The translations under genes and the position numbers were made by a program. Below, one piece after another: positions 8,969-55,345 of a stretch of DNA of 64,000 nucleotides. The notes beneath the pieces were generated by a model. That model was not told the origin of the DNA, searched no databases, and worked only from the letters and a program-made list of their open reading frames with translations. Positions within the stretch are counted from its first letter, which is position 1; each line of letters begins with the position of its first letter. Source of the stretch: a virus. The stretch is taken from IMG/VR virus record IMGVR_UViG_3300005289_000016, positions 124,001 through 188,000 of that record. One strand, given 5' to 3'.

Positions 8969-9177
8969 TCCATCATGAAACGCGGACCATTGACCTGATG
9001 GCTCACGTCAAGGGCATGTATCCGCCACCCAATAACAACTGGTCGATGAAACGTAAAGTCAAGCATCGCAAGTTCATTGCGGCAAAGATGAAACGTCACC
9101 AGAACACCATTCTCTCCGTAATCAAGGAAGTCGCACATGACACCATTCGTTCTGAACACCCGTCTGACACCAACTGA
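8965..9177 (+). CDS. Hypothetical basic protein, 70 aa
   Basis: Not recognised. Lys/His-rich middle (KRKVKHRKFIAAKMKRHQ) could contact nucleic acid. ATGA overlap with the gene before. Its last 41 bases overlap the start of the thymidylate-synthase-like gene, which is an unusually long overlap. The true end or start of one of the pair may differ in use. Confidence 0.68.
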   Translation: MIHHETRTIDLMAHVKGMYPPPNNNWSMKRKVKHRKFIAAKMKRHQNTILSVIKEVAHDTIRSEHPSDTN

Positions 9178-10759
9178 TGATGCGTACCACAACCTCATCG
9201 AGGATGTGTTGCACAACGGCAACTTCAAGGGTGACCGTACTGGCACTGGCACCTACGCAGTAGTTGGTCGTCTGGCCCGCTACAACCTGATGAACAAGCG
9301 TTCGCCTCGCCTGACTACCAAAGGCATGCAGGATACTGCTGAGCGCGAGATGCTCTGGTTCTGCGGCGGTAGCTCCAGCATCAAGGAACTGCGTGATCAG
9401 AAGATCGGTATCTGGAACAGTTGGTTGATCCCGGGCACGGCCAAGTACCGCACCCGCACCAATGATGAACTCATTGGGCTGTTGGCGCGGAAGTACGATA
9501 ACGATACCGCCACGATAAACTTCTGCACCAATGATCACCTTCTCGAAATACAGAAGGGTCGCGGCATCAACATCTTCGACAAGTTCACCGTCAAGATCAC
9601 GGTCAAAGAAAGCCTGTCGAGGACAGTCGAGATCTACGGCAGTGACGCATACTTCACTTCTGTTGAAGGCGTGCTTCATCACGCGGCTCAGTACCACAAC
9701 ATCGCAGTGGAAATCCTGACCGACGGCAGCATTGGTCCAGGCGCTTACGGTCCACAATGGCGTCACTGGCAGGACACCCAGATCATCACTCAAGCTGACT
9801 TGGTCCAGTACCAACAGCAAGGCTACACTCTGCGCGGCGAGATCGCTCCAGTGGGCCTGCCGGACACTGAAGAAGCTCTGCTGGCAGAACTGGATCGTGT
9901 GGCCGAAGCGAAAGGCTACGTCCGTACCGACGTCGTGAAGGTGCAGTTCGACGAAGTGGGCGATAAAGGTTACGACGTCTACAACAACGGCGGTACGCTG
10001 TGGGCTCGTTACACTGACGACAACGGCCTGCGTAAGATCTTCACTGCCATCGCTGACCTGCCACGTTTTGTGGTGCATCGTGAAGTCGACCAGTTGGTCA
10101 ATGCGATCCAGTTGCTTAACCATGAGCCGAACAGCCGTCGTATCATCGTTTCGGCCTGGAACCCAGCGCTGACGTGGAAGGCTGCTCTGCCGCCATGTCA
10201 CCTGTACTTCCAGTTCATCTCGCATGAGTTGACTCTGGAGCAGCGCTACATGATCGCCCGCGACCGTATGGCTCTTCAGAAGTACGACCTGAAGAAAGAA
10301 GCGGACAAGGGTTTCATGGACATGGCTCTGCGTACGTGGATGCAGTACGACCTCGAGGCAGATCGTAAAGACTGCACCGATGAAGAACTGCACGGCAACA
10401 TGGACGCAGTCGGCATCAAGCGTCGTGGCCTGTACTGCTTCCTCCTGCTGCGTTCCAACGACCTCGGTCTCGGACAACCGTTCAACGTGGCTCAGTACGC
10501 AACGCTGACTCACATGGTGGCTCAGTGTGTCGGTATGGAAGCATTGGAGCTGGTGTGGGCTGCGGTAGACGCTCACGTGTACTCCAACCACGTACAAGCG
10601 CTGGAACATCAGCTGACTCTGGAATCGAAGGACTGTATCCCTCGGTTGAAACTGAACCCTAACGTCACGTCGATCGACGGCTTCAAGATCAGTGACATCC
10701 AGATCATCGACTACGATAGTCACCCGGCACTCACCAAAGAAATGCCTGTAGCCGTATAA
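9137..10759 (+). CDS. thyA-like: Thymidylate synthase family enzyme with three large insertions, 540 aa
   Basis: All thymidylate synthase landmarks are present in order. They are the phosphate loop DRTGTGT (33-39), ELLWF-like EMLWFCGG (71-78), YGPQWRHW (204-211), SRR (333-335), the catalytic LPPCH with Cys354, RSND with Asp442, PFNVAQYA with Asn450, and DAHVYSNH (478-485). Asn450 matches the residue that selects dUMP over dCMP, so the substrate should be dUMP. The product could be dTMP, or 5-hydroxymethyl-dUMP as in SPO1-type hydroxymethylases. Usual family size is about 265 aa. Here about 100 residues are inserted after IWNSW (96), about 100 after the QWRHW motif, and about 65 after FQF. GDAH is VDAH. 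Strong, neighbour-like codon use argues for an intact gene. Confidence 0.93.
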   Translation: MTPFVLNTRLTPTDDAYHNLIEDVLHNGNFKGDRTGTGTYAVVGRLARYNLMNKRSPRLTTKGMQDTAEREMLWFCGGSSSIKELRDQKIGIWNSWLIPGTAKYRTRTNDELIGLLARKYDNDTATINFCTNDHLLEIQKGRGINIFDKFTVKITVKESLSRTVEIYGSDAYFTSVEGVLHHAAQYHNIAVEILTDGSIGPGAYGPQWRHWQDTQIITQADLVQYQQQGYTLRGEIAPVGLPDTEEALLAELDRVAEAKGYVRTDVVKVQFDEVGDKGYDVYNNGGTLWARYTDDNGLRKIFTAIADLPRFVVHREVDQLVNAIQLLNHEPNSRRIIVSAWNPALTWKAALPPCHLYFQFISHELTLEQRYMIARDRMALQKYDLKKEADKGFMDMALRTWMQYDLEADRKDCTDEELHGNMDAVGIKRRGLYCFLLLRSNDLGLGQPFNVAQYATLTHMVAQCVGMEALELVWAAVDAHVYSNHVQALEHQLTLESKDCIPRLKLNPNVTSIDGFKISDIQIIDYDSHPALTKEMPVAV

Positions 10760-10769
10760 GGAAAACGGA

Positions 10770-10979
10770 ATGAAATCTATCAACCATACTCGCAACGCAG
10801 TGCGGTTTGCTATTGTGGTCTTCTGGGTTGTCGTCCTCGGACTGACATACACCGCGTTTCAGAACTCCGGCAACGCATTCGCGCTGGGTTGGGGAACGTG
10901 GCTGTTTTACGCAGTCGTGGCAATCGTTGTGTTCTACGCCGGTGTCGTTTACACCATCAAACTCTGGAGCTTCAAATGA
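10770..10979 (+). CDS. Two-span membrane protein, 69 aa
   Basis: Two hydrophobic segments (about residues 12-32 and 41-64) joined by a short loop, with basic residues at both ends, so both termini are probably cytoplasmic. Its stop overlaps the start of the SPFH lipoprotein gene (ATGA), suggesting joint expression and perhaps a shared membrane complex. It could be holin-like by topology, but nothing else supports that. Confidence 0.8.
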   Translation: MKSINHTRNAVRFAIVVFWVVVLGLTYTAFQNSGNAFALGWGTWLFYAVVAIVVFYAGVVYTIKLWSFK

Positions 10980-11677
10980 AAAATGTAGTAGTAGCTGTTC
11001 TTCTCCTGCTGGCGATTGCTGGCTGTAGCCGTACCCCGTCGAACGTCCACGTGATCGCGACGTCCAACTGCGGCGCTAAATGGGAGAAGCTCTCCGTTGG
11101 CTCCACTGTGCCTAAACACACCGGCAATCCATGTGGCTACAACGTGGCCCTGCCGAACTGGCCGATGGCTGGCGACACTCAGTTCAAGACCCAATTCTCC
11201 AAGAAGGTCCTGAGCAATGCCAAGATGTCGTACACCTACACCATCACCGATCCGCTTCTGTTCATCAACGAAGCACGCTACCTCGGCAAGATGGGCGGTT
11301 CCCTCGAACTCTCCTCTGACACTGTTGGCAGCCGTTACGAGATGGCCGAGAACATCATCATCGACAAGATGCTGCGTGAGGTGACGACTGAGCTGACCCG
11401 TGATCTGGACGTCGTTGATGCCAACCCGGCAGAGATCGAAGACGCGATCCTGAAGCAGGCCAAAGATACCCTAGAGAAGAAAGGCATCGTCCTCAGCGAC
11501 CTTGCTTTGGTCATCGAGAACGACGACCTGACCCGTCTGGCTATCGACGCTGCTACTGCGATCCGCGTGTACGAAGCTGCTGGCATCCGTACCGTTGGTG
11601 AAAGCGTGATGACGGCTCGTGCCGGTGCCACCAAGATCCAGGTCATCACTGCGTCCGAGCACAACTCGGAACAATAA
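10976..11677 (+). CDS. Lipoprotein with SPFH/Band-7 domain, 233 aa
   Basis: Starts with MKNVVV, a hydrophobic core and a lipobox ending AIAGC, so Cys17 is probably lipidated. The region from about residue 75 to 200 has the pattern of stomatin/prohibitin (SPFH) domains. A beta region (SYTYTITDPLLFINEA) is followed by long helices with ELTRDLDVVDANPAEI and EKKGIVLSDLALV, then an Ala-rich helix. SPFH proteins form membrane ring scaffolds. This one would sit on the outer leaflet of the inner membrane or on the outer membrane. The start at 10976 overlaps the stop of the two-span membrane gene. Confidence 0.82.
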   Translation: MKNVVVAVLLLLAIAGCSRTPSNVHVIATSNCGAKWEKLSVGSTVPKHTGNPCGYNVALPNWPMAGDTQFKTQFSKKVLSNAKMSYTYTITDPLLFINEARYLGKMGGSLELSSDTVGSRYEMAENIIIDKMLREVTTELTRDLDVVDANPAEIEDAILKQAKDTLEKKGIVLSDLALVIENDDLTRLAIDAATAIRVYEAAGIRTVGESVMTARAGATKIQVITASEHNSEQ

Positions 11678-12965: not shown

Positions 12966-14138
12966 ATGTGCTTTGAACGTCTTTACAATGTACCGTTCGT
13001 TGAAGAACCGGACTTCACTCGCGAGATCAAGGTCCTCAAAGGCATCGCTGACATCCCGTTTAAGGACGCGGTGGAACAGATCGGCACTACCGCCAAGATC
13101 ATCCTGGACGGCGCTATCATTGATGCTGTCATGCGCGAAGCCAATAGTCGTTTCGCACACGTCAACGTCATCGGTGCTGATGACACACTGCAAGAGCTGG
13201 AAGACCGCTCTGTCGTGTTCTCGTCCCCAGTCATGAGCAGCCGGTTCCTTAACGGCAGCGTGCATCCTGAAGTACTGACAGTCAGTCATCACAAAGACCT
13301 CCAAGGCACTGTGGTTGTACTGAAGTTGAAGGACTTCTCGTTCGTCGCCATGTACAGCTTGGTTGTTGCTCCGCCGACTGGGCTGCCAGAAGACACGATC
13401 GCCTTGGCTGAGCTGCGCATCAAGTTCGGCCTTGAATCCGAGTCAGTCCGAATCTATCGCGACTATGCCAGAGAGGTAGAGTTGCTGACCCCAGCACCAC
13501 AAGTTCTCTCCACGTTCCGCAAGCTGTGGAACCACAGTCCGATGAACTTCCCACCGTTCTCGGACACTCGCATCATGATGATGCCGGTGAAGATCGGTCA
13601 TCTGGACGGTATCCCTGAGCACTACTGGCGCTTCATGGAACAACTCTTCGGCATGACTGAGGAACGTTTCCACGGTGAGATCGGGTATCTGACCATCGAC
13701 GAGCGTGAGCTACAACCAGGTGAGACTCTGCGCCGTTCGGGTCTGCACGTGGACGGCTACTACCAAGGCCGTTGCGGTGCATGGGGTGGCGGTGGCGGTT
13801 GGGGCAGCGTGGGCAATGGCATGCTGGCGGTTTCCAGTACTCCTCACTGCAAAGCGTGGCTGGGCATCGCTCGTGGTGAGATCGGTAGCGAAGGTGAAGC
13901 CGATCAGATGGACCTCAGCTCCTGCGGTTCGATCATCTTCGGCGCTGGTGATGTTTACTGGGTCGACGGCGCGTGCATTCACGAATCGCTGCCGGTGGAA
14001 GAAACCACCAAGCGTCAGTTCGTGCGTCTGTCCATGCCGAACAACGGTCCTTGGTTTGAAGGCTACACCGAGAACCCGACTGGCATCAAACCGTCGAACG
14101 ACATCCTGCCTACTCGTGACAAGTTCATGAAGGGCTAA
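12966..14138 (+). CDS. Putative 2-oxoglutarate/Fe(II)-dependent dioxygenase, 390 aa
   Basis: The C-terminal third carries the pattern of double-stranded beta-helix oxygenases. His261-Val-Asp263 (SGLHVDGYY) is the first metal pair. The distal His339 (ACIHES) follows a GAGDVYWVDG turn, and Arg354-x-Ser356 (FVRLS) could bind the 2-oxoglutarate carboxylate. A glycine-rich loop (about 272-285) lies between. The N-terminal 200 residues are not recognised. The substrate cannot be read from sequence. Phage members of this fold can modify nucleic acid bases or proteins. An iron enzyme without 2OG use is also possible. The start follows AAGGAATCGAC. Confidence 0.68.
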   Translation: MCFERLYNVPFVEEPDFTREIKVLKGIADIPFKDAVEQIGTTAKIILDGAIIDAVMREANSRFAHVNVIGADDTLQELEDRSVVFSSPVMSSRFLNGSVHPEVLTVSHHKDLQGTVVVLKLKDFSFVAMYSLVVAPPTGLPEDTIALAELRIKFGLESESVRIYRDYAREVELLTPAPQVLSTFRKLWNHSPMNFPPFSDTRIMMMPVKIGHLDGIPEHYWRFMEQLFGMTEERFHGEIGYLTIDERELQPGETLRRSGLHVDGYYQGRCGAWGGGGGWGSVGNGMLAVSSTPHCKAWLGIARGEIGSEGEADQMDLSSCGSIIFGAGDVYWVDGACIHESLPVEETTKRQFVRLSMPNNGPWFEGYTENPTGIKPSNDILPTRDKFMKG

Positions 14139-43600: not shown

Positions 43601-45640
43601 ATGGACAACCGCATCGAAGCTCTGCGAGCAGAGATCAGTCGTCTGAACCACCTCTATTACAACGAGGGGGAATCAGACGTTGATGATGACGTATACGACT
43701 CCCTCAAAGCTGAGTTGCGCGAGCTTGAAGGGGTAAGTGATGATCCGCTGTCGCCCTTGAACCAAGTGGGTGCGACGGCAGTAGGGGGCTTTGATAAAAT
43801 CAAGCACCTAACACCGATGTTGAGCTTGGGCAACGTCTACAACGAAGAAGAACTGACAGACTGGTGTCTTGGTTTGGGCTACGCTGCCTTTGCGCAGATG
43901 GAACTCAAGCACGACGGTCTGGCGATTGGCCTTCTGTACGACAAAACCAAGCTGAAGTACGCTGCTACCCGTGGCGATGGTGATATTGGTGATGACATCA
44001 CCGAGAATGCCGTGTATTTCGAAGGTGTTCCGGAAGAACTGCCTGAGTTCCCGGGTAAAGTCGAGATCCGGGGTGAAGCCGTCGTACCGCACAAGCACTT
44101 CAAGCGTGTTTGTGAGCTGCGTGAGGCTCAAGGCAAGAAGGTTTACGCCAACCCACGTAACATGGTGGCCGGATTGGCCCGCAAGAAGGAAGGTGCCGAC
44201 CTGATAGGCATGGGGATTCGCTTCATTGCCTACGATGCAGTGGTTCATACCCCTGTCGGACCGATTTCAGTGCCCATGTCGTACTTCAGTCCTGAAGTTC
44301 AGGCTCGGTTCCACATCTCCCTGCCAGTTTGGGAAGGGTTGACCAGCGATATTGGCAACATCATCGAGACAATCGAGGATGTCACCGAGGATCGCCCCAA
44401 CTTAGGACACGACATCGACGGCTTGGTGATCAAACTGGTCAAACCAGCTGAGCGTCAGACCCTCGGACAGCGCTCTACGTCTCCTCGGTGGGCTACAGCG
44501 TTCAAGTTTGAGGCTCAGACTGCCACAACGATCCTGGAAAGTGTCGAAGTGCAGGTCGGTCGGACTGGTGTATTGACTCCGGTGGCTAAAATCCGTCCAG
44601 TGAAGCTTTGTGGCGTGACGATCTCGTCTGTCACCCTGCACAACTTCGAGGAAATCGAGCGTCTTGACTTGCGGATTGGCGATACCGTGGTGGTTTCTCG
44701 TCGTGGTGACGTGATTCCGAAGATCGAGAGCGTGGTGATTGCGCTGCGGGTCGATGAACACGGTGTAGTTCGCACTCCAGTTGAGTGTCCGTGCTGTGGA
44801 TCGAAGGTGACCAAGCGGGATGTGGGCAAAGAGGAGGGGGTGAAGCTGTTCTGCACCAACTTGATCAACTGTCCAGCCCAGCTTATCAACCGGATGGCGT
44901 ACTTCGTCAGCCGCGATGGCATCGACGTGAAGAACTTAGGACCTGCTGCGGTTGAATCGCTGATCGCCACCGGGGTTCTGGGCTCGTTCAGCTCGTTGTT
45001 CTACCTGTCCGAGCAGGATTTCTACGCTGCGGGTATAGGTGAGGCCATGACGGACAAGATCATTGCTGGTCTGAACCGTTGCAAGAAGCTGCCGTTCTAC
45101 AAAGCACTGCGGGCTGTGGGGATTCCCGACGTCGGAGACAGCACTGCACGTGCCTTGGCTCAACGTTTCCCAAGCTTCCGTGATCTTGGCAAGGCCAGCT
45201 TCAAGACCTTGCAGGAAGTAGACGACGTAGGTCCTGCCGTAGCGACCAGCATCATGCTGACGTACATCGCCAACGACAGTGATCTGCATGCGCTCGACAG
45301 TATCTTCACATACACCGACGTGGCTATTCCGAAAGCAGCAGTTCAGGACCTTGCCGGTAAGACGGTCGTGGTCAGTGGCTCTGACTTCGATGGCATGACT
45401 CGTCGGGCGATGGAAGACGATGTGTTCTCACGGGGCGGTAAGCTGACCAAGAGCGTGAGCAAGAACACTGACATCCTCTATGCAGGGATTGGTGCTGGAC
45501 CTGACAAAGTCAGGAAGGCCAAGGAGCTGGGTTTCATCGAAGATGGGATCAAGTTCACCAACCCTAACTCTCTTACCACGCTGTCCTCAACCGACAACGG
45601 ACTTACACCTATCGCAACAGGAGATACCGATGAGCAATGA
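43601..45640 (+). CDS. ligA: NAD-dependent DNA ligase, 679 aa
   Basis: All domains are in order and of bacterial length. The Ia region has YYNEGESDVDDDVYD (19-33). The adenylation domain has ELKHDG with catalytic Lys103, RGDGDIGDD and VEIRGEAV. An OB fold has VGRTGVLTPVAKIRPV. A zinc finger has CPCC...C...C. Helix-hairpin-helix repeats and a C-terminal BRCT domain follow (about 590-655, KTVVVSGSDF, GGKLTKSVSKNT). It seals nicks using NAD+, adequate for replication and repair. A whole LigA on a phage is uncommon but known from large phages. The next gene starts inside its last codons. Confidence 0.96.
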   Translation: MDNRIEALRAEISRLNHLYYNEGESDVDDDVYDSLKAELRELEGVSDDPLSPLNQVGATAVGGFDKIKHLTPMLSLGNVYNEEELTDWCLGLGYAAFAQMELKHDGLAIGLLYDKTKLKYAATRGDGDIGDDITENAVYFEGVPEELPEFPGKVEIRGEAVVPHKHFKRVCELREAQGKKVYANPRNMVAGLARKKEGADLIGMGIRFIAYDAVVHTPVGPISVPMSYFSPEVQARFHISLPVWEGLTSDIGNIIETIEDVTEDRPNLGHDIDGLVIKLVKPAERQTLGQRSTSPRWATAFKFEAQTATTILESVEVQVGRTGVLTPVAKIRPVKLCGVTISSVTLHNFEEIERLDLRIGDTVVVSRRGDVIPKIESVVIALRVDEHGVVRTPVECPCCGSKVTKRDVGKEEGVKLFCTNLINCPAQLINRMAYFVSRDGIDVKNLGPAAVESLIATGVLGSFSSLFYLSEQDFYAAGIGEAMTDKIIAGLNRCKKLPFYKALRAVGIPDVGDSTARALAQRFPSFRDLGKASFKTLQEVDDVGPAVATSIMLTYIANDSDLHALDSIFTYTDVAIPKAAVQDLAGKTVVVSGSDFDGMTRRAMEDDVFSRGGKLTKSVSKNTDILYAGIGAGPDKVRKAKELGFIEDGIKFTNPNSLTTLSSTDNGLTPIATGDTDEQ

Positions 45641-46693: not shown

Positions 46694-47215
46694 ATGAGGA
46701 TCAGTCTGATCTATGCCCAGAACGAAGATGGGGCGATCGGCTTAGCCGGCCCCCATCCACTTCCGTGGCACCACCCTGAAGACCTGGCACGGTTTAAGGA
46801 ACTGACGATGGGCAAGCCGCTACTCATGGGCATGAACACCTTCGACAGCCTCCCTAGACTGTTACCAGGTCGCTTCCATTTTGTGCTGACTCGCGGGAAA
46901 GGTCTCCCTCGACTCGGTCGATTGGCAAGTGTACAATTTCTGAACAGTATCGCCGCATCGTTGTTGGCATGCCGTGACCTTGACATGAAGGAACTCTTCG
47001 TGATCGGAGGCTCGTCTATCCTGAACACCATGATCGGTAGAGCTGACACCATTTATCGGACTATGGTCCTCAACACTCCGCTCGAAGGCGATCTTGCCAA
47101 GGTGCACATGCCAGAGCATGAACATCCGGCATGGAAACAGTACGAGTGCGTCAAGACTGAATACGTCGAAGATCGCCTTGTATTCCAGACCTTCGAGCTA
47201 AAACACCAAGGGTAA
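46694..47215 (+). CDS. folA-like: Dihydrofolate reductase, 173 aa
   Basis: Family marks: MRISLIYAQNEDGAIG, the Met20-loop LPWHHPEDL with Asp30 as proton donor, RFKELTMGKPLLMGMNTFDSLP, LPGR, VLTR, and the NADPH-binding ELFVIGGSSI. Length is typical (160-175). It regenerates tetrahydrofolate consumed by the thymidylate-synthase-like enzyme encoded 36 kb away. The active-site Phe-Lys pair is conserved. It follows AAGGAGCATC. Confidence 0.94.
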   Translation: MRISLIYAQNEDGAIGLAGPHPLPWHHPEDLARFKELTMGKPLLMGMNTFDSLPRLLPGRFHFVLTRGKGLPRLGRLASVQFLNSIAASLLACRDLDMKELFVIGGSSILNTMIGRADTIYRTMVLNTPLEGDLAKVHMPEHEHPAWKQYECVKTEYVEDRLVFQTFELKHQG

Positions 47216-47642: not shown

Positions 47643-48800
47643 ATGGCTACTCCAGCTCAGTTGGCTGCAAAGCTGAGTACCCTGTTGGTTTCGATCAAGA
47701 ACAAGATCAATGGGAAACTCGATAGTGGAGCACGAGCAGCGGACTCCTCCAAGCTGGAGGGCCTCACTCTTGCTCAGGTCATGGCTAAGACCGTCACTGA
47801 TAACCTTGCCCAAGTCAACGGCCGTAGAGGCGAATCCGCATTCTTCAGTCAAGACGGTACACCGGGCGCACTGGTCGGAGCAGAGATGCTCACCTCAATG
47901 CGCATGGCATCTGACGACACCGCAATCGCTAACTTGAAAAGCGGTACGGTGTCGTTCTCAGACGTGTTCACCAAATGGAGCCGTATCAGTCACGGCACAA
48001 ACGGTCTGTTCCCAAGCATCCCTGCTGAACTGGATGGATGGTCCTACGACAGTGCCACCGACAGCATTGCCTCCACCATCAATAGCGTCAGCATGATCGG
48101 TATCATCAGTACCGACCGTTTCGACAGCTACGAGTTCGAGACAATCATGTCGTCGACTTCCAACGACGACGATGCCATCGGCATGTGCTTGGCCTTCAAG
48201 AAGGTCGGCGATAAAGAGCACAGTCTGACAGTCTTTGTCAGCACCGGCGGGATGAACGCACTTGGTCAGATTGCCAATGGTCAGACGCCTAAGTTGGTGG
48301 TTGTTGTCAACGCGGGTCAGACTGGCGCACAAGGGCAGCAGGTATTGGCGGTGCGGGAACTTGGCTCACCGGCCTCTGGGTTCAGTGGGATCAACTACTC
48401 TGCTGGCATTCGGGTTGTAGCCAAGCGCAGCATCACCGGCCTGATCGAAATCACTTGCACCAAAGCAGACGGTTCTGCATGGCCCAATCCAGTGTCGTGG
48501 TCGGGTTCTCTGCCAGCAATCTTCCAGAGCAAGTGCGCAATCGGTTATGTATCGATCTCCCAACCGTCGTCGACGTGGAAGAACATCAAGCTTCCCGTCT
48601 CCAAACGGGACATCATCGACACTCGTGATCTCACCGTGTGGCGGTTTACCAATAACGCTTGGGTCAATGCCGGTAAGGCGAACAACCCCGATGTCCTGCC
48701 TCCTGGTCGGATGTACAAGAACACCGAAGGTAACATGGGCTCGTACTACCTTGACTTTGAGGGTAACTTCGTGACGCTGGGGTTATCGGCGGTACCGTAA
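47643..48800 (+). CDS. Fibre protein with lectin-like domain (paralogue A), 385 aa
   Basis: The N-terminal 60 residues (LAAKLSTLLVSIKNKINGKLD, then AADSSKLEGLTLAQV) form a shared attachment module also present in the next gene and in part in the fibre at 24159. After a short linker the middle has the pattern of a concanavalin-like sandwich (WSYDSATDSI, STINSVSMIGIIS, NDDDAIGMCLAFKK). The tail has MYKNTEGNMGSYYLDFEGNF. Likely a tail-fibre or spike that binds the host surface. Confidence 0.83.
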   Translation: MATPAQLAAKLSTLLVSIKNKINGKLDSGARAADSSKLEGLTLAQVMAKTVTDNLAQVNGRRGESAFFSQDGTPGALVGAEMLTSMRMASDDTAIANLKSGTVSFSDVFTKWSRISHGTNGLFPSIPAELDGWSYDSATDSIASTINSVSMIGIISTDRFDSYEFETIMSSTSNDDDAIGMCLAFKKVGDKEHSLTVFVSTGGMNALGQIANGQTPKLVVVVNAGQTGAQGQQVLAVRELGSPASGFSGINYSAGIRVVAKRSITGLIEITCTKADGSAWPNPVSWSGSLPAIFQSKCAIGYVSISQPSSTWKNIKLPVSKRDIIDTRDLTVWRFTNNAWVNAGKANNPDVLPPGRMYKNTEGNMGSYYLDFEGNFVTLGLSAVP

Positions 48801-48825: not shown

Positions 48826-49992
48826 ATGGCCACTCCTACGCAATTGTCCGTCAAACTGGACACACTCTTTAAATCGATCAGCACCAAGCTTTCCAGTAAA
48901 CTGGATCTAGCCTCTGTTGCTGCCGATTCGTCTAAACTCGAAGGCATGACCTTGGCACAGGTCGGGGCCCTGACTGTCACCGACCAACTCGCTCAAGTCA
49001 ATGGACGTAAGGGTGAGATGGCATTCTTCAGTCAAGACGGTACGCCCATGGCACTGGAAGGCGGTGAAATGGTCGTCCAGTTGCGCATGGCTTCGGACGA
49101 TGCCGCCATCGATGCATTGAAAAGTGCTACGGTATCATTCGAGGACATCTTCAACAAGTGGGGACGAATCAGCCACAGTAACCAGCTCATCTTTCCACAC
49201 AACGTGACGGAGATGAACAGTTGGTCTTACGATCAGCCAACCGATTCTGTCCTGTCGACCGTGAATAGCGGAACAATGATTGGATTGATCAGTCCTGATC
49301 GGTTTGACCAATACACCTTCGAGACTAGCTTCAAGTCCACCAACGGGGATGATGACGCCATCGGCATGTGTGCTGCCTTTAAAAAGGTAGGAGACCGTGA
49401 GTACACGGTCTCGGTGTTGGTCAGTCCTCGTGGAATGAACCCTGACGGTAGTTACAACACCGCAGGCACTCCTCGAATCTGGTGCACCGTCAACTACAAC
49501 CAAGGTGCTGCTAACGGGATGGTGGTACTGTGGACCCAAGAGTTGGGCATTGCAGCATCGCCGTGGAACTCTGGTGAAATCGCAGCAGGTATTCGGGTTA
49601 AGGTAGTGCGTCGAGCTGGCGGTCTGTTGGAGATCACCTCTACCAGACCAGACGGCTCTCCGTGGCCTAACCCGGTATTCACTACGGTGCAGCTACCTAC
49701 CATGTTCCTCTCCAAATGCTCCATCGGGTACTTGGCCACTTCTCAACCAGCCTCCACCTGGCAGAACTTCCAAGTACCAACCGCCAAGACCGACATCGTG
49801 GACAAACGCGACATGACAGTCTGGCGATGGAACAACACCACAGGCACTTGGGTCAATGCCGGCAAGATGAGTAACCCGGCAGTCATGACTCCCGGACGCA
49901 TCTACAAGGATACCCAGCCCCCGTATTACGGGGCGTACTACCTTGATTTCGACGGCAACCTCGTGACAATTGGGCAGCCTTCTCAGTTGTAA
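48826..49992 (+). CDS. Fibre protein with lectin-like domain (paralogue B), 388 aa
   Basis: Aligned along its length with the preceding gene: LSVKLDTLFKSISTKLSSKLD, AADSSKLEGMTLAQV, MAFFSQDGTP, WSYDQPTDSV, NGDDDAIGMCAAFKK, and a similar C-terminus. The two differ most in loops, as expected for alternative receptor-binding proteins. Expressed from the same unit. Confidence 0.83.
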   Translation: MATPTQLSVKLDTLFKSISTKLSSKLDLASVAADSSKLEGMTLAQVGALTVTDQLAQVNGRKGEMAFFSQDGTPMALEGGEMVVQLRMASDDAAIDALKSATVSFEDIFNKWGRISHSNQLIFPHNVTEMNSWSYDQPTDSVLSTVNSGTMIGLISPDRFDQYTFETSFKSTNGDDDAIGMCAAFKKVGDREYTVSVLVSPRGMNPDGSYNTAGTPRIWCTVNYNQGAANGMVVLWTQELGIAASPWNSGEIAAGIRVKVVRRAGGLLEITSTRPDGSPWPNPVFTTVQLPTMFLSKCSIGYLATSQPASTWQNFQVPTAKTDIVDKRDMTVWRWNNTTGTWVNAGKMSNPAVMTPGRIYKDTQPPYYGAYYLDFDGNLVTIGQPSQL

Positions 49993-53346: not shown

Positions 53347-53400
53347 TGCTCCTACCACTCTCGTTTATTAACCCCATTTCGAAACAGTAAGGAAGTCTCC

Positions 53401-55284
53401 ATGTCCCAAGTTGCTGAAGCTTTCAAATACCACGAATCCCTCGACGAACTGCAAATGGCGGCGCAATCGAAACTGGCTCCTGGCGCCGGTGCGATCTTCG
53501 CTACCCAGCAGCGCAAGAAGATGATGAACCACTACCTGCTCTCCATCGAGAAGGTAGCCAAAGACGCTTACCCGGACCACATCCGTGAAATCGTGCAGCA
53601 TTACAACTGCTCGCAGTGCGCTCGCTTCATGTCCCGCGTTGGCCATCTGGTGGTTGAAGGCGAGCAAGGCCTGGAATCGGTGTTCTGGAACCCGAACGCC
53701 GTAACCGACCCTTTCTTCAAGGAAGTGGTCAAGCTGATGAAGATGTTCGTCGAGCAGGGCCGCATCACCACCCTGTTCAACCCGAACGGGCCGTACGCCA
53801 ACTACCAGAACATCACCAAGGCGGAAGACGGTGAGCAGACCTGGCAGCACTACTTCATCCAGCCGCAGTTCCTGCGTCACCGCTACGCCGGCCTGGATCG
53901 CGAGATCGACTTCGACGAGTTCCACAAGACCGCCGACCGTGTCAACTCGCTGATCAAGATCACCAAGGAAGTCGACCTTCCAACCGTGATGTGGGTTGAG
54001 CAGATGTTCCAAGCCCGTACCCTCGAGCACCTGGAACACAGCGAAGCGACCATCAAGTCGTTTGCTGACATGCTGGCTCAGCTGCAAGTGGCGCAGTCGT
54101 TGGTGTCGTACACCTCGGCCAACGAATACCAGCAAGAAACCATCCTGGTCAACCGCATCTGGGTCTTCGCCATGAAGCACCGTGCGCTGGCTGCTCTGCG
54201 TGGTTCGATGTTGGGTACGTTGCTTCTGGAAGCGGCCAAGCTGATGAAACAGCCGAACCGTTCGAAGGCGCAGGAATTGGGTCTCCAGTCTTTTTGGAAG
54301 TCTCAGACATCTACTTTGAACTACCGCCGCACTACCGCTGCGGCCTCCTCGGGCCAACTGGAACGCACCGCCAACTTCTTGCAAGAGAACAACTGGCTGC
54401 CGTCGCTCCAACAGCGTGAAGCGGCTGAACTCGATGTGCCTGCCCTGTGGGAAGCCAAGTCGCGTTGGACCTGGATCGAAGGCAAGCCTGTGTCCGCACA
54501 AGCTGACTTCGCCGAGTTCGCATCGCGTAAAGGCGCCGACATCGAGCAAGTCAAAGCACCGATCACCATGGACGTCGGCTACTTCTTCAACGAAGTGCTG
54601 AAACACGTGGTGGCACTGGGCGTGGACATGACCGACCTGTCGTGGAAACCTGCACTGTTGAACGTCATGGCAGATATGACTGCCAAGCCGATCTTCAAGT
54701 GGGACTCTGACGAGCGTCGTGCTCCGTTCATCCCGTGGACCTATAACGAGAACTTCCGTGCAGCCCAACTGGTCACTGACAAGTCGGTTGTGCAGAATGG
54801 TCGCGTGGTCCTGCCAGTACTGTCCATCACCTCGTCCTCGGTCATCGGTTACCATGGCCGTAACCCTGAGAACGAAGCGCTGATGTTCTTGTTCGCCGGT
54901 GTCGGCATGCCGTACGCTCCTCACCCAGCCCTGTTCGCAGAAGCTGTCAAAGACGAGCTGTACCAGCACCGTCGTGCCATCGAAGACTACAGCAAGTCGA
55001 CCCAACTGCCTCGTGCAGAAGGTCAACAGTCGCTGGGTCTTACCTTCGGTCCTCGTCACCCGCTGCAACAAGGTGAAGTGAAGATCACCCTGCACGCTCG
55101 CCTGAGCGATGAAGGCCAGGTCCTGTTCGGTGCCCGTGACATCCGCTTCGTAGTGGACGGTTGCGGTTACAAGATCAAGCCTGTGATTGAAGGTCGTCCA
55201 GTACTGCGTGATCGCCTGTCGGTCGACGCCGCTGCGCCAGTAGCACCTGAAGCCCCTTCGGCCTCGGCCTCCCTGCTGGTCTGA
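53401..55284 (+). CDS. Abundant-type hypothetical protein, 627 aa
   Basis: Not recognised. Nearly all codons are of the preferred set (CTG, GGC, ACC, CGT/CGC), implying very high expression, as for a structural or bulk infection protein. A CSQC pair (residues about 70-73) could bind zinc or iron. The N-terminal half is helical with a KLAPGAGAIFATQQ loop. The C-terminal half is mixed, with an Ala/Pro-rich tail. It is close to the size of the phage-nucleus shell protein of phiKZ-like phages, but no sequence similarity is claimed. GTAAGGAAG precedes the start. Confidence 0.83.
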   Translation: MSQVAEAFKYHESLDELQMAAQSKLAPGAGAIFATQQRKKMMNHYLLSIEKVAKDAYPDHIREIVQHYNCSQCARFMSRVGHLVVEGEQGLESVFWNPNAVTDPFFKEVVKLMKMFVEQGRITTLFNPNGPYANYQNITKAEDGEQTWQHYFIQPQFLRHRYAGLDREIDFDEFHKTADRVNSLIKITKEVDLPTVMWVEQMFQARTLEHLEHSEATIKSFADMLAQLQVAQSLVSYTSANEYQQETILVNRIWVFAMKHRALAALRGSMLGTLLLEAAKLMKQPNRSKAQELGLQSFWKSQTSTLNYRRTTAAASSGQLERTANFLQENNWLPSLQQREAAELDVPALWEAKSRWTWIEGKPVSAQADFAEFASRKGADIEQVKAPITMDVGYFFNEVLKHVVALGVDMTDLSWKPALLNVMADMTAKPIFKWDSDERRAPFIPWTYNENFRAAQLVTDKSVVQNGRVVLPVLSITSSSVIGYHGRNPENEALMFLFAGVGMPYAPHPALFAEAVKDELYQHRRAIEDYSKSTQLPRAEGQQSLGLTFGPRHPLQQGEVKITLHARLSDEGQVLFGARDIRFVVDGCGYKIKPVIEGRPVLRDRLSVDAAAPVAPEAPSASASLLV

Positions 55285-55291
55285 TCCATTC

Positions 55292-55311
55292 GGGGTGAGT
55301 TCGCTCACCCC
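55292..55311 (+). terminator. Partial terminator between two highly expressed genes
   Basis: 8-bp stem GGGGTGAG/CTCACCCC with TTCG loop, but no T-run. Probably sets relative expression of the 627-aa and the downstream Nudix-like gene. Confidence 0.65.
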
Positions 55312-55345
55312 ATCCACCCTTTCGCTGTCCATTAGGAGTTACACC

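Follow-up and report, generated by a model that had tools for sequence, protein, structure and literature searches.

Thymidylate synthase (TS) is among the best-studied and most conserved of enzymes, and the Escherichia coli protein, ThyA, is 264 amino acids long. The TSs of phiKZ-like phages, including PhiPA3 gp274 and those of Phabio, Psa21 and 201phi2-1, are about 457–490 residues long and carry inserts at three sites, with 99–123 residues at site 1, 37–40 at site 2 and 51–79 at site 3; in most large phage TSs, site 3 holds 37–79 residues. The extent of the TS small domain is highly variable, and this domain needs bound cofactor to become fully ordered (PMC6479881). Human TS has insertions of 12 and 8 residues at human positions 117 and 146 (PMC5929524). 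The dUMP hydroxymethylases SPO1 gp29 and phiW-14 gp231 and the dCMP hydroxymethylase T4 gp42 belong to the same superfamily and have the catalytic Cys in common with TS. In the description of the T4 dCMP hydroxymethylase structure, an acidic residue (Asp or Glu) at the third position ahead of this Cys (Cys-3) is the signature of hydroxymethylation, and the C-terminal tail is missing (PMC6400193). The phiW-14 protein is annotated as similar to the SPO1 enzyme, and the report of the phiW-14 genome cautions that an assay is needed to settle the product (PMC5977210).

The DNA analyzed here, referred to as the window, is a stretch of 64,000 nucleotides covering positions 124001–188000 of a virus record of 276,032 bases (G000:C1). 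An open reading frame at 9137–10759 on the plus strand, with an ATG start and an AAGGA-like site 5' of it, encodes a protein of 540 amino acids that matches the ThyA family profile PF00303 with E = 5.8e-72 and 242.5 bits, against a curated cut-off of 24.3. The protein also matches phrog_160 over residues 11–538 (E = 6.9e-74), NCBIfam TIGR03284 with 216.8 bits (cut-off 108.35) and 120 PDB chains. The PRK01827 equivalogs scored under their own cut-offs, as expected for a protein with inserts, and the PDB and Pfam matches are split into three separate stretches, again as expected for an insert-interrupted protein. An AlphaFold2 model built on 48 related sequences (mean pLDDT 83.5, pTM 0.82) was matched by Foldseek to TS structures, with a TMt of 0.93 against E. 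coli TS 1zpr, and its best viral structural match was the TS of 201phi2-1; the TS core fold is thus predicted to be kept. The same protein, 540–541 residues long with 76–77% identity and all three inserts, was found in two relatives, both in 277-kb phage contigs. Because these relatives share it, and because purifying selection acts on the core and on inserts 2 and 3, a chance origin of the TS and its inserts is excluded. The protein is a genuine, oversized TS, and the profiles and alignment confirm the preliminary description of this locus as a TS with three large insertions and twice the usual size. An open reading frame for 576 amino acids on the minus strand (9122–10852) spans the whole TS gene. 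It was rejected as a codon-usage artefact, explained by the extreme scarcity of TTA, CTA and TCA codons, and it is closed by stops in the related contig L015 and in the cultured Pseudomonas aeruginosa phage pPa_SNUABM_DT01 (DT01). Other long antisense reading frames in the window, such as that at 53368–55332, probably have the same cause.

With the E. coli ThyA sequence serving as the ruler, the extra residues fall into the gaps between E. coli positions 83–89, 101–109 and 150–156. In ThyA these gaps hold 5, 7 and 5 residues, whereas the window TS has 101, 105 and 70 there. These values agree with the earlier estimate of about 100, 100 and 65 extra residues at three places. Insert 1 (9425–9724, plus strand; residues 97–196) lies in the first gap, where TSs have their small domain. 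Insert 2 (9773–10084, plus strand; residues 213–316) lies in the second and includes a lineage-specific extension of ~66 amino acids (9839–10048, plus strand; about residues 235–304). Insert 3 (10217–10429, plus strand; residues 361–431) fills the third gap and is mostly helical in the model, with helices at 367–388, 395–408 and 415–424. Insert 2 was modeled as strand-helix-strand plus more strands, with loops of low confidence; folded alone, it gave a poor, unusable model (pLDDT 49). The inserts hold predicted helices and strands, but almost all of the lowest-confidence segments of the model also lie in them, those with pLDDT <50 being residues 135–138, 141–148, 270–287, 301–307 and 389–403.

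The three inserts differ in how strongly they are constrained. When the window TS was compared with that of either of its two nearest relatives, L015 and L016, dN/dS was lowest for the core (0.07–0.09), followed by insert 2 (0.17), insert 3 (0.23–0.28) and insert 1 (0.42–0.50); the comparison of L015 with L016 gave 0.05, 0.13, 0.08 and 0.18 for these four parts, respectively. The core, insert 2 and insert 3 are under purifying selection, and identity in insert 1 between close relatives is 48%. According to these values, insert 2, the most lineage-peculiar of the three, is well constrained and insert 1 drifts fastest. No profile recognizes insert 1 and it evolves fast, so its assignment as an enlarged TS small domain follows from its position alone and should be read as a probable one.

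A tblastn search of phage records with the window TS matched 2477 records, with jumbo phages giving the best matches. In a tree of 36 TSs, the window protein belongs to a clade of 14 members (support 100/100) that is divided into two halves. The proteins of this clade are 473–619 residues long and have 87–261 residues at site 1; the very long forms of insert 1, 155–261 residues, are found in the half that does not include the window TS. Within the window half, site 2 holds 105–108 residues in six environmental phages (the window phage, L015, L016, L122, L123 and L124). The TS of DT01 (MW735835, PA10_00235, 473 aa; 62–64% identity) resembles the window TS in inserts 1 and 3, in having one residue more ahead of the catalytic Tyr, in the motif AVDAH and in its PVAV tail, but is unlike it in lacking the ~66-residue extension, with 40 residues at site 2 rather than 105. 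Since DT01 nests inside the six extension carriers (97/93), the simplest reading is that the extension was lost in this phage. Judged from the sequences, the extension is evidently specific to the subclade of six environmental phages, arose there and was lost in DT01.

The sites themselves are shared much more widely. The phiKZ-like TSs, with ~30–34% identity to the window protein, have their inserts at the same three sites, although their insert 2 is just 37–40 residues long and they are without the extra residue before the Tyr. The Lactobacillaceae/Enterococcus-type TS with a small domain and, apparently, human TS have a site-1 insert like the window TS, but a much shorter one (55 residues in Weissella/Lactobacillus loci), and no insert 3. 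The two human insertions apparently correspond to sites 1 and 2 of the window TS. From the phiKZ-like, Weissella/Lactobacillus, small-domain and human data, we conclude that none of the three sites is new, each being a place where insertions are already known or recur. The preliminary description had treated the inserts as novel unless homologues with identical inserts proved common in annotated phage TSs. A search of the family found the same three sites in many annotated jumbo-phage TSs, and novelty accordingly falls for the sites and stands for the insert-2 extension, which is lineage-specific. The window TS is a variant within the known pattern of enlarged jumbo-phage TSs.

Equivalents of the catalytic Cys, the Arg pair, Glu58, Tyr94, Asp169, Asn177 and His207/Tyr209 are all present in the window TS. 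The nucleophile, Cys354, lies in the motif LPPCH (codon 10196–10198, plus strand), with Leu351 at Cys-3, as is typical of TS, and the protein ends in MPVAV, a TS-type closing tail. Cys354, Asp442 and Asn450 are invariant in our TS alignment (A1), in line with the earlier statements that every catalytic motif is kept and that the Asn is of the dUMP type, and the change of GDAH to VDAH noted at the same time is real in the alignment. A feature that the preliminary description does not mention is an extra residue immediately preceding the catalytic Tyr, in Gly202-Ala203-Tyr204 (9740–9748, plus strand; Tyr204 corresponds to E. coli Tyr94). In an alignment of 97 sequences, this extra residue is found in all 14 clade members as G[A/G/S]YG, most often GPGGYG versus GP-V-YG, and 81 of the 97 sequences have one residue fewer before the Tyr; outside the clade, two residues at this position occur only in L025 and in the divergent phiW-14 enzyme. 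Further substitutions in the clade are Ala, Gly or Ser for Val93 beside the catalytic Tyr, Leu or Met for Gln165 and, often, Val for Gly204. These changes, together with the extra residue, suggest that catalysis could differ in this clade.

Whether the enzyme makes dTMP or hydroxymethyl-dUMP had been left open. Production of hydroxymethyl-dUMP for a modified phage DNA would fit with the altered loop at the catalytic Tyr and the VDAH motif in the clade, and the phiW-14 enzyme apparently also has an extra residue in its Tyr loop in our alignment. However, the residues that distinguish the two activities are of the TS type. SPO1 gp29, phiW-14 gp231 and T4 gp42 have Asp at Cys-3, where the window enzyme has Leu; the motif at the Cys is PCN in the SPO1 and phiW-14 enzymes and MCT in T4, versus PCH here; and the three proteins are without the PVAV tail, which is complete in the window protein. 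Trp80/83 are kept in the window enzyme, whereas Ser replaces Trp80 in the SPO1 and phiW-14 enzymes, and T4 gp42 has Asp at the base-selecting position occupied here by Asn. The window enzyme groups with TSs, apart from the SPO1 and phiW-14 enzymes, whose branches are very long. The phage also encodes a dihydrofolate reductase (46694–47215, plus strand; PF00186, E = 5.9e-32, found at the same place in the genome search) and, just upstream of the window, a thymidylate kinase (G000:122174–122752) that is 78% identical to the DT01 tmk product. No thymidine-hypermodification gene was found in the genome by tblastn with selected phiW-14 proteins or with the HMUDK_hel profile, the latter searched without a positive control; to our knowledge, phages with plain hydroxymethyluracil need no hypermodification genes. 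The genome likewise yielded no PF00383-family dCMP deaminase. The signature residues, the reductase and kinase genes, and the absence of counterparts of the selected phiW-14 proteins and of a PF00383 dCMP deaminase together favor dTMP synthesis, and a dUMP hydroxymethylase is very unlikely. The product is almost certainly dTMP, as judged from the sequence and in keeping with the reductase and kinase genes, and the window TS gives no indication of a novel DNA modification. We thus consider it very probable that the protein is a dTMP-forming, folate-dependent TS of a ~276-kb jumbo phage, with evolving surface inserts.

The origin and role of the inserts were considered separately. Searches of the inserts against Pfam, PHROGs and PDB gave no convincing match, and no convincing homologues turned up in the rest of the genome or among phages and plasmids. 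A phmmer match of insert 2 to 2b33 (E = 0.0014) raised the possibility of a captured RidA/YjgF-like half domain. The match faded with deeper profiles, to E = 0.016 and then 0.082, PF01042 did not match insert 2, and hhalign profile-profile comparison gave a probability of 4.5%, so that this origin is largely refuted and exceedingly improbable. BURRH matches obtained with a six-sequence insert-2 profile were repeat-inflated, with only ~45-residue stretches matching TALE-type repeats, and searches with a single sequence and with a three-sequence profile gave none. An intein or intron was rejected by reasoning alone: all three inserts keep the reading frame and show conservation of a coding kind, and an intein would need to be longer.

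The inserts might pack into a single added domain that senses a ligand or serves as a docking site for a partner, such as a localization factor or dNTP-synthesis enzymes of the host or phage. The enzyme would then be regulated or localized through this domain, in addition to making dTMP rather than in place of it. Retention of inserts across the whole clade and a constraint on insert 2 close to that on the core (dN/dS 0.17 versus 0.07–0.09) are consistent with such a domain, but insert 1 is poorly conserved even between close relatives, DT01 has lost the insert-2 extension, and no interaction domain was recognized in the inserts; we therefore regard a single added domain as unlikely. Similarly doubtful is a broader proposal for the clade, in which the three inserts and the re-shaped Tyr loop would constitute a docking or regulatory module that ties the enzyme into a dNTP-synthesis complex or alters its chemistry. 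The best reading is that the ~265 extra residues are three surface elaborations that grew within the lineage at insert-tolerant places of TS, with a putative structural or accessory role such as cofactor gating, stability or docking.

For a dTMP-forming TS with such elaborations, Cys354 would attack dUMP, with Asn450 selecting uracil and Tyr204 acting as the general base, and methylene-tetrahydrofolate would donate the methylene and hydride. The resulting dihydrofolate could be recycled by the phage reductase, and dTMP would be handed to the phage thymidylate kinase for phage DNA synthesis. Insert 1 would represent an enlarged small domain, a region that becomes ordered on cofactor binding in other TSs, and inserts 2 and 3 would be additions typical of large phage TSs, the ~66-residue extension of insert 2 presumably having arisen in the subclade. 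With its double-length TS, extra residue before the Tyr and natural loss of the extension in cultured DT01, this clade offers a ready comparison set for the function of TS insertions.

Interruption of the TS gene occurs in some phiKZ-like phages. In a related contig, L017/L133, the TS match does not start until query residue 194 and contains many in-frame stops, which suggests that the gene there may be interrupted by an intron or other element.

Several other genes of the window attracted attention. The gene 3' of TS (10976–11677) encodes a protein with, by eye, a lipoprotein-like N-terminus and SPFH/band-7-like sequence; it shows 92–93% protein identity in DT01, L015 and L016 and 85% DNA identity to DT01, and is far nearer to DT01 than TS or the other neighbors are. 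The 390-residue protein encoded at 12966–14138 (phrog_8970) is 86–88% identical to its L015 and L122 counterparts in the C-terminal half and only ~37% in the first ~170 residues, indicating a mosaic gene, and matches L016 over its full length at 85%. The gene at 43601–45640 encodes a NAD-dependent DNA ligase of the full bacterial type, with adenylation, OB, zinc finger, HhH and BRCT regions. Two adjacent genes (47643–48800 and 48826–49992) match the same tail-fibre/virion profiles (phrog_21285 and phrog_33406) and are likely a tandem duplication.
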